A stretch of DNA of 34,373 nt from Candidatus Giovannonibacteria bacterium (GTDB taxonomy: Bacteria; Patescibacteriota; Minisyncoccia; UBA11713; 2-01-FULL-45-33): NCBI GenBank assembly GCA_016176295.1, contig JACOXN010000012.1, positions 5,290 to 39,662 of the forward strand, given 5' to 3'. Every line of letters begins with the position of its first letter. The stretch's first letter is position 1. The translations under genes were made by a program, and so were the position numbers. This document shows, piece after piece, positions 2,468 through 11,999 of the stretch. The notes below the pieces were generated by a model. It saw nothing but the letters and a program-made list of their open reading frames with translations. It did not search any database and was not told where the DNA came from.

Positions 2468-2947
2468 ATGAAAATAATTATTCGAATTTGGGCCGGGTGG
2501 TTCATTCTTTTTACTGCCACAATTGCAGGATATGTTCTCTCCCGGGAGGCAAACAAACCGCCAATTAAAACTGCGGATACGCGTGATGAAAAAGTCACCA
2601 ATGTGCAGTTGATTGATACGATGCCAGTGTCTGACAAGAAAACGCGTCCCGGCCGTTCTGCCAACATCCCGCCTGTTCTGAAAGAAATAGCATCTTGCGA
2701 ATCCGGTGGAAAACATTTCGACGGAAATGGCCGCGTGCTCCGCGGGCGGGAAAATCCTCTGGATATCGGAAGGTACCAGATAAATTTATATCACTGGGGA
2801 GAAGTGGCACAGAAGCTCGGACACGATTTATTTGATCCGGAAGGCAACGAAAAATTTGCCGTCTGGCTCTACAACAATTACGGCACGTGGCCATGGAACC
2901 CCAGCAAGAACTGCTGGAATAATGCCCTAACAGCAGTGGCCCGATAA
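2468..2947 (+). CDS. Secreted/membrane-anchored lytic transglycosylase (lysozyme-like fold)
   Basis: N-terminal TM segment, IASCESGGKH catalytic-Glu-like motif, IGRYQINLYHW, WPWNPSKNCW; AAGGGGG SD; ATG at 2468 preferred to TTG at 2465. Confidence 0.75.
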   Translation: MKIIIRIWAGWFILFTATIAGYVLSREANKPPIKTADTRDEKVTNVQLIDTMPVSDKKTRPGRSANIPPVLKEIASCESGGKHFDGNGRVLRGRENPLDIGRYQINLYHWGEVAQKLGHDLFDPEGNEKFAVWLYNNYGTWPWNPSKNCWNNALTAVAR

Positions 2948-2951
2948 CACG

Positions 2952-2978
2952 CACAGGTCAATGAACCTGTGTTTTTTT
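2952..2978 (+). terminator. Rho-independent terminator
   Basis: CACAGGT-caatga-ACCTGTG followed by TTTTTTT. Confidence 0.85.
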
Positions 2979-2980
2979 AT

Positions 2981-3122
2981 GTTTAAAAACTGAGTAATTT
3001 CTGAGCTCATTCTCGCCGCGCCAGCGCGCGGCTCCGAAGGTTCGGCCTTTTTACCACGCTGCTGCGTGGACCATGCTAAAAAAGCCTCACAAATCGTCCA
3101 GAAATTATTCAGTTTTTTAAAC
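2981..3122. repeat. Palindromic element A (nested inverted repeats)
   Basis: Outer arms GTTTAAAAACTGAGTAATTTCTG (2981-3003) / CAGAAATTATTCAGTTTTTTAAAC (3099-3122); inner hairpins GCCGCGC/GCGCGGC and CCACGC-TGCT-GCGTGG; core resembles 29625-29710 reverse complement. Confidence 0.7.
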
Positions 3123-11260: not shown

Positions 11261-11293
11261 AAAAGTGGTCAACATTCAATGTTGACCACTTTT
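11261..11293. repeat. 33-nt perfect palindrome between tig and the Zn-ribbon microgene
   Basis: AAAAGTGGTCAACATT-c-AATGTTGACCACTTTT, 16-bp arms with one centre base. Confidence 0.9.
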
Positions 11294-11355
11294 GCCGTAA
11301 AAAAAGTCGGGAGGAATAAAAAACAGCCGCAAGTAAAAACTCGCGGTTCTGTTGG

Positions 11356-11526
11356 TCAGTTGATCAATCGAAATGTTTCCGGCCGTGGCTCCTGGCCTGA
11401 TAGAAAAAAAGAAGCCAGACAGTTACTGCAACTCACGATTGGTTCGTTCGTAATCAGATCGTAACCAATCGTCTCAGCGGTTTCACCGCACACCGGGCAA
11501 ATTTGCAACGGTACGTTTTTGTTCAT
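11356..11526 (-). CDS. 56-aa zinc-ribbon microprotein
   Basis: Not in ORF track. Reads MNKNVPLQICPVCGETAETIGYDLITNEPIVSCSNCLASFFLSGQEPRPETFRLIN; CPVC...CSNC; SD AAGGAG before ATG. Confidence 0.75.
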   Translation of the reverse strand: MNKNVPLQICPVCGETAETIGYDLITNEPIVSCSNCLASFFLSGQEPRPETFRLIN

Positions 11527-11667
11527 CTACAACTCCTTCACCTCGCGCAGTTCTTTGCGGAACTTTTCCGTTTCCGCTCTGTGCCGCGTGAGTGATTTTT
11601 TAACCCAGCGGTTAAACCACCATACTAGAACTAAAAAACCTCCTCCGGTCATTAACGGTATCCACAT
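11527..11667 (-). CDS. 46-aa single-TM microprotein
   Basis: Not in ORF track. Reads MWIPLMTGGGFLVLVWWFNRWVKKSLTRHRAETEKFRKELREVKEL; SD AAAAAGGAG; its TAG abuts the ATG of the 56-aa ORF. Confidence 0.7.
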   Translation of the reverse strand: MWIPLMTGGGFLVLVWWFNRWVKKSLTRHRAETEKFRKELREVKEL

Positions 11668-11699
11668 TTTTATCTCCTTTTTCTATTTTTTTCTTCAAA

Positions 11700-11835
11700 G
11701 AGCCCGTCAAAACCACCATTCCAAAATTTTTTTCAAAAAAATGGAATGGGAACTTTGATGGACCGGGCTCGCTTATTTGCAAAAAATCCCGGTAACGCAG
11801 CAGTAAGTTACTGTCGCAATATGCAAGCGAGCCCG
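11700..11835 (-). promoter_or_regulatory. Structured leader with mutually exclusive stems
   Basis: CGGGCTCGCTT/AAGCGAGCCCG (11825-11835 with 11764-11774) competes with 11764-11770/11700-11706; the latter encloses CCATTCCA...TGGAATGG. Confidence 0.55.
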
Positions 11836-11869
11836 TGCGCGCGTTGGCGCATTGAAACGGCAGGTTCTT

Positions 11870-11896
11870 TTAACACCGAAAATAAGTCTCGGCCAT
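11870..11896 (-). CDS. Candidate leader peptide MAETYFRC
   Basis: ATG GCC GAG ACT TAT TTT CGG TGT TAA preceded by GGAGG at 8-nt spacing. Confidence 0.35.
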   Translation of the reverse strand: MAETYFRC

Positions 11897-11970
11897 GCCC
11901 CTATCCTCCGCCGCAGAGTTCAATGTTAGATCAAACCCTTTTTAAGAACATTCAATCTCTTCTCACTCGC

Positions 11971-11999
11971 ATATTATCACGGATATATGAAGATGTCAA
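11971..11999 (-). promoter_or_regulatory. Putative sigma-70 promoter for the microgene operon
   Basis: Minus strand TTGACA (11999-11994) N17 TAATAT (11976-11971). Confidence 0.4.

Follow-up and report, generated by a model that had tools for sequence, protein, structure and literature searches.

Between the genes mutM and tig, the genome of Candidatus Giovannonibacteria bacterium GCA_016176295.1 carries two microgenes, and a leader of about 300 nt lies between their promoter and the first ORF (46 aa), which raises the question of what this leader does. We analyzed a window of 34,373 nt, corresponding to positions 5,290-39,662 of the forward strand of contig JACOXN010000012.1. A promoter, a structured leader, a transmembrane (TM) microgene, a Zn-ribbon microgene and a terminator, all of them located on the minus strand, together form a self-contained transcription unit (Table 1). 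The promoter, the mini-ORF, segments 1 to 3, the hairpin, the Shine-Dalgarno (SD) sequences and both ORFs had been listed in a first-pass annotation and were all found in place by direct reading. It had also been proposed there that segment 2 pairs with either segment 1 or segment 3, in the manner of an attenuator or riboswitch.

Table 1. Features of the transcription unit between mutM and tig (positions refer to the window)
Feature	Position	Strand	Remarks
Sigma70-type promoter TTGACA-N17-TAATAT	11971..11999	-	promoter score 10/12, TG ahead of -10
Promoter-proximal box GTTCTTAAAAA, boxA-like	11939..11949	-	form as GTTCTTAAACA in G054 copies; one short motif, alone not significant
Mini-ORF MAETYFRC	11870..11896	-	GGAGG upstream
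H1 long-loop hairpin	11764..11835	-	11-bp stem 11835-11825 : 11774-11764
Segment 1 CGGGCTCGCTT	11835-11825	-	sequence reading; 5' arm of H1
Segment 2 AAGCGAGCCCG	11774-11764	-	sequence reading; 3' arm of H1
H2 hairpin GTCC-A-TCAAAG...TTTTGA-C-GGGC	11702..11763	-	A.C mismatch; adjoins H1 with zero gap
Segment 3 CGGGCTC	11706-11700	-	sequence reading; its end falls in the GYTCTTT box
GYTCTTT box, here GCTCTTTGAAGA, boxA-like	11697..11703	-	about 36 nt 5' of the start codon
RNA form of the box GCUCUUUGAAGA			candidate NusB-S10 ligand
SD AAAAAGGAG (AAGGAG) of the TM microgene	11674..11682	-	sequence reading
46-aa single-TM ORF MWIPLMTGG...	11527..11667	-	ATG at 11667; G006 homologue behind an equivalent leader
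56-aa Zn-ribbon ORF, CxxC...CxxC	11356..11526	-	ATG immediately after the stop of the 46-aa ORF
Intrinsic terminator-like hairpin CCGCGAGTTTTTACTTGCGG + T-run	11327..11346	-	ends the unit

Minimum-energy folding of positions 11840-11700 resulted in two abutting hairpins, H1 and H2 (z -4.9). All 11 pairs of the stem between segments 1 and 2 are perfect, and none of 200 shuffled sequences was as good. As a leader peptide, MAETYFRC is probably non-functional. The 12-mer GCGGAGGATAGG, located in the leader 5' of H1, is common to the window (11900-11911, where it includes the apparent SD of the mini-ORF) and to locus L072 (4249-4260). Downstream of the unit, a perfect 15-bp inverted repeat (AAAAGTGGTCAACAT-TGA-ATGTTGACCACTTTT) was observed at 11261-11293, just 5' of the putative tig promoter (TTGAGA-N17-TACATT).

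A DNA search of related genomes led to a part of genome G006 where this leader signature recurs three times, ahead of other small ORFs. From four copies a covariance model (R1) was built, which revealed copies in further genomes. A second model (R2) was used with a class sample of 286 genomes and a phylum sample of 287 genomes, the latter serving as background. With these covariance models about 49 copies of the H1-H2 pair were identified in the Patescibacteria class to which the window belongs. R2 matches at E<=1e-3 occur in 26 of the 286 class genomes, and the phylum sample yielded only two single matches at E<=1e-4, both of them weak; loops were abridged for model building and the E-values are rough. 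Where hairpins scored on both strands, the better-scoring strand was used. In the own genome the window copy is the only match of R1. The expectation of a structured leader ahead of the microgenes was thereby borne out, since the structure is kept in these copies.

Many copies are clustered. Four were found within 2.5 kb in G009:C10, four in G006:C2, three in G006:C6 and three in G054:C8. A pattern scan across genomes detected four copies within 2.5 kb in Parcubacteria group bacterium Gr01-1014_29 (VMFT01000014.1), a named carrier, at the same match positions as in G088:C40. Copies frequently form one-strand arrays of 2-4, each copy ahead of an ORFan microgene, and in all 13 multi-copy loci the copies share one strand. 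The window copy stands without a microgene array. The leader is a module of strand-specific architecture that recurs before microgenes and is restricted mainly to this class. Exact sequence patterns were too strict and matched only G006 plus chance matches. Pattern matches outside the Patescibacteria (L112-L119, L122-L125) had weak or no R1 scores, and scans of viral sequences gave no or chance matches, L035 lying within a phage coding frame. Two candidates were rejected: the pattern match L121 resembles coding sequence, and the end-of-contig DNA match pair L021/L028 is unrelated coding sequence. Rfam contained nothing credible for the leader at gathering or E-value thresholds, and no riboswitch or leader family above the gathering score. 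A description of such a leader was not found in the literature covered, which excluded most subscription journals and preprints. The parts of this class-specific leader RNA look known, while their combination and setting are undescribed.

The copies share the order H1, H2 and, in over half of them, GYTCTTT with an A-rich stretch; an SD follows, in most cases with a small ORF behind it. H2 follows the consensus CCATCAAAG...TTTTGAYGG, also written CTTCCATCAAAG...TTTTGAYGGGAG, with a conserved base and a variable upper stem. In 7 of its 14 pairs both sides are changed, and the covariation score of 0.319 compares with 0.165 in shuffled alignments (0/500 as high) and with at most 0.171 when partners were slid. 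Some H2 hairpins are long near-perfect duplexes, up to about 40 bp in G054, and apical sequences (TTCTCTAATTCGCGCGAATAGGAGAAT) recur across several loci and genomes. The sequence of H1 is free between copies, while its pairing is maintained and its 3' end touches H2. Anchored at H2, stems of 6 bp or longer are present in 37 of 49 copies vs 3.7% of shuffles; with the anchor moved 20 or 40 nt upstream or to the mirror side, the counts were 1/49, 5/49 and 1/49, respectively, with about 3.5% in shuffles. In several copies the upstream gene ends at or inside H1. Downstream, GTTCTTT was the top de novo 7-mer (23/49, runner-up 12), and GYTCTTT occurs in 27 of 49 copies vs 0.9 in shuffles and 5.6% of random windows, counts that refer to copies found with H2 models in which the box is partly included. 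The box is mostly located 40-50 nt 5' of the start codon and often lies 10-70 nt beyond H2, not always adjoining it; it was for this distance that we rejected it as the U-tract of a terminator. Because the arrays use one strand, H1 occurs on the 5' side only and box and start codon lie on the 3' side, the module is regarded as an RNA element. In G006 two promoter-driven leaders without H1-H2 (L036 2380-2440 and 1290-1350, minus strand) start with AGTTCTAAACAA, a shorter version of the box.

The two microgenes, which had been proposed from the window, look real. A homologue of the 46-aa TM protein is encoded behind a G006 copy of the leader (31% identity, E 1e-5); it was missed in a protein search of 93 relatives, which gave weak chance-like matches only, and was recovered via the DNA match. 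In G009 the same type of leader precedes the gene of a 126-aa TM+Zn protein, whose Zn half is similar to the 56-aa Zn-ribbon protein (E 2e-6). This fused protein suggests that the two window proteins may act together, a reading tempered by the generic nature of Zn-ribbon similarity. The 56-aa protein also shows weak matches to YgiT/Lar zinc-ribbon profiles.

Among the scanned array microproteins no credible Pfam or PHROG family was identified. One family, MAWYC...CGGP, is encoded in arrays at L170 3069-3311, G241:C29 24988-25197 and G088:C40 9350-9559. Its members are 59-64% identical to the G006 copy and were found in only 3 of 286 genomes, which belong to three families; this distribution in arrays suggests that the islands may have been horizontally transferred. 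A second family with the motif R(I/L)PLP...GG...K...Y.R (alignment A7) occurs in arrays of G006, G241, G184, G139 and Gr01-1014_29, and two scanned members had no Pfam or PHROG matches. A gene for a TrmB-type regulator is located beside arrays (L170 1426-2208; L171 10707-11450; also L172, L174 and L173), which Pfam confirmed in G006 and G251; in G184, G009 and Gr01-1014_29 it was recognized from sequence resemblance alone. In addition, a structured module of about 130 nt (GTGCCGTGGGGTTTAGGCAAAGATTACCCACG...GAGGATCTGGCA) was observed at L073 3039-3165 and 3876-4005 and at L072 about 2930-3070. It is duplicated in G006, is also present in G009 directly 5' of H1-H2, has a compensated stem and possibly represents a second RNA family. 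Inside a microgene array, L073 2338-2392 resembles a type III hammerhead (38.4 bits, E 6e-5; the gathering score of 48.5 was not reached).

The box points to a known signal. Its sequence, GYTCTTT, is identical to bases 1-7 of the boxA consensus published as GYTCTTTAANA; boxA is also known from sites close to the start codons of genes other than those for rRNA, e.g., suhB (PMC5725501). The bases that follow (positions 8-11 of the consensus) are A-rich and loose. NusB is encoded in the own genome (PF01029, E 3e-33). GNNCTTTGAAAAT is present in some rRNA leaders of the class, with p values of 0.05 for the own genome and of 0 to 0.035 for three other genomes; the box of the own rRNA leader is GAACTTTGAAAA, not GYTCTTT, and agrees with GTTCTTTGAAAA in 10 of 12 positions (p 0.05). 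A search for boxA in the ITS found nothing. A conserved TTTTCTTTTGTYCCG-like motif was observed just 5' of the 16S gene in L092, L093, L089 and L091. A search for Rho (TIGR00767) in 11 genomes, i.e., the own genome and 10 relatives, gave no match that exceeded the curated cut-off, and classical anti-Rho antitermination is therefore unlikely.

We tentatively favor the explanation that the tandem hairpins and the boxA-like NusB/S10 site form a leader with an effect on how poorly translated microgene units are transcribed. The cis-RNA module would consist of a variable H1, an H2 conserved at its base, a boxA-like GYTCTTT(n)AAAA box and an A-rich SD region. The nascent hairpins and the box may load a complex of the NusB/S10 type or, like put RNA, may make direct contact with RNA polymerase, and polymerase could thereby pass the poorly translated, highly structured units without pausing or terminating, each gene start being re-armed by its own leader copy. 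The number of covariance-model copies, the covariation in H2, the abutment of H1 on H2, the enrichment of GTTCTTT and GYTCTTT downstream, the match to the start of boxA, the presence of NusB and the class rRNA leaders with GNNCTTTGAAAAT are consistent with this explanation, and a single strand in every multi-copy locus is expected of an RNA element. Against it stand the seeming absence of Rho, the usual target of boxA complexes, the deviating box in the own rRNA leader, the distance of 20-70 nt between H2 and box in some copies, and the number of copies in a 3-kb array, which exceeds what processive antitermination should need.

Several of these points could also be read as RNA processing or stabilization, which we consider rather unlikely. 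RNase III or a similar enzyme would cut the H2 duplex between genes, and the remaining GUUCUUU-A-rich-SD 5' end would give separate protected mRNAs. One intergenic copy per gene in the arrays and the near-perfect H2 duplexes agree with such cutting, and two promoter-driven G006 transcripts that start with the similar AGTTCTAAACAAAAAT and lack H1-H2 make the box look like a normal 5' end. However, the box does not adjoin H2 in every copy, the window copy and one G009 copy (L076) lie directly 3' of a promoter, where cutting is unnecessary, and more bases are conserved at the H2 foot than a duplex-cutting enzyme would require. Masking of the SD is improbable: here CUCUUU of the box would pair with AAGGAG across the A-rich loop, and H1-H2 or a bound factor would determine the accessibility of the SD. 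CUCUU does pair with AGGAG when the window leader and one G006 copy are folded at minimum energy, but GYTCTTT stays constant whether the SD is AAGGAG, GGAGG or GAGGT, so that covariation is missing, its leading G is retained though unnecessary for pairing, and in two copies box and SD almost touch, which makes pairing impossible.

The switch proposed at the outset, in which the 1:2 and 2:3 pairings exclude each other, fares worse and we regard it as very improbable. Both pairings can be drawn in the window, where the 2:3 match of 6-7 bp is unusual (0/200 shuffles), but conservation is confined to the 1:2 stem, i.e., H1; over the 49 copies the 2:3 pairing is at chance, with a mean of 3.86 vs 3.60 bp in shuffles and 2/49 copies at p<=0.05. 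The leader contains neither a terminator nor a U-run, the only terminator being 3' of the genes, H1 and H2 stand side by side in the minimum-energy structure, a MAETYFRC counterpart was not recognized in relatives, and Rfam provided no riboswitch match. There is the faintest of chances that the hairpins are REP-like mobile DNA palindromes, intergenic by chance, as the recurrence of H2 apical sequences might indicate. Such palindromes would occur in both orientations and without 5'/3' asymmetry, neither of which was seen in the 49 copies: the strand is shared in all 13 arrays, H1 is confined to the 5' side and box and start codon to the 3' side, and the H1 sequences diverge while their pairing is retained. 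The leader probably acts on transcription or RNA processing and not as an on/off switch.

Extended to the class, the transcription-modifying leader would represent an undescribed cis-RNA system of Patescibacteria in which Rho was not detected: at each gene of an ORFan microgene island the module would re-arm RNA polymerase or, alternatively, bring about processing of the transcript, with Rho-independent use of boxA outside rRNA operons; we offer this as a conjecture about which we have more doubt than confidence. Knowledge of gene control at the RNA level is very scant for Patescibacteria. The leader is defined by covariance models, 49 copies and one named genome and is directly testable; it marks microgene islands that length cut-offs can hide and raises the question what role a boxA-like signal plays in genomes without detected Rho.

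Compared with known systems, the 56-aa protein shares CxxC...CxxC and its profile matches with the small YgiT/Lar zinc-ribbon proteins, but the matches are partial, Lar models remain below curated scores and for YgiT a 14-residue finger piece alone passes the cut-off. Leader-peptide transcriptional attenuators likewise have a mini-ORF and alternative pairings, which can be drawn here in a single window; in contrast to them, the alternative pairing is unconserved, the mini-ORF is unrecognized in relatives and the leader is without a terminator. The boxA systems of rRNA, lambdoid nut sites and the suhB 5' UTR, which bind NusB/NusE, resemble the leader in having GYTCTTT and an A-rich stretch close to where the transcript starts or about 40-50 nt 5' of the start codon and a hairpin upstream of the box, and a NusB gene is present in the genome. 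They differ in that a short boxB takes the place of the two abutting hairpins, whereas the leader described here is repeated per gene of microgene arrays in genomes where Rho was undetected, and the own rRNA leader box deviates at two bases. The put RNA of phage HK022 comprises about 70 nt with defined bulges, acts via the beta' zinc-binding domain and is described without a boxA (PMC9378689). The likeness to put RNA noted here is one of architecture: both have two consecutive stem-loops with hardly any spacer in a nascent leader, cis-acting near the promoter (PMC9378689). H1 is free in sequence here.
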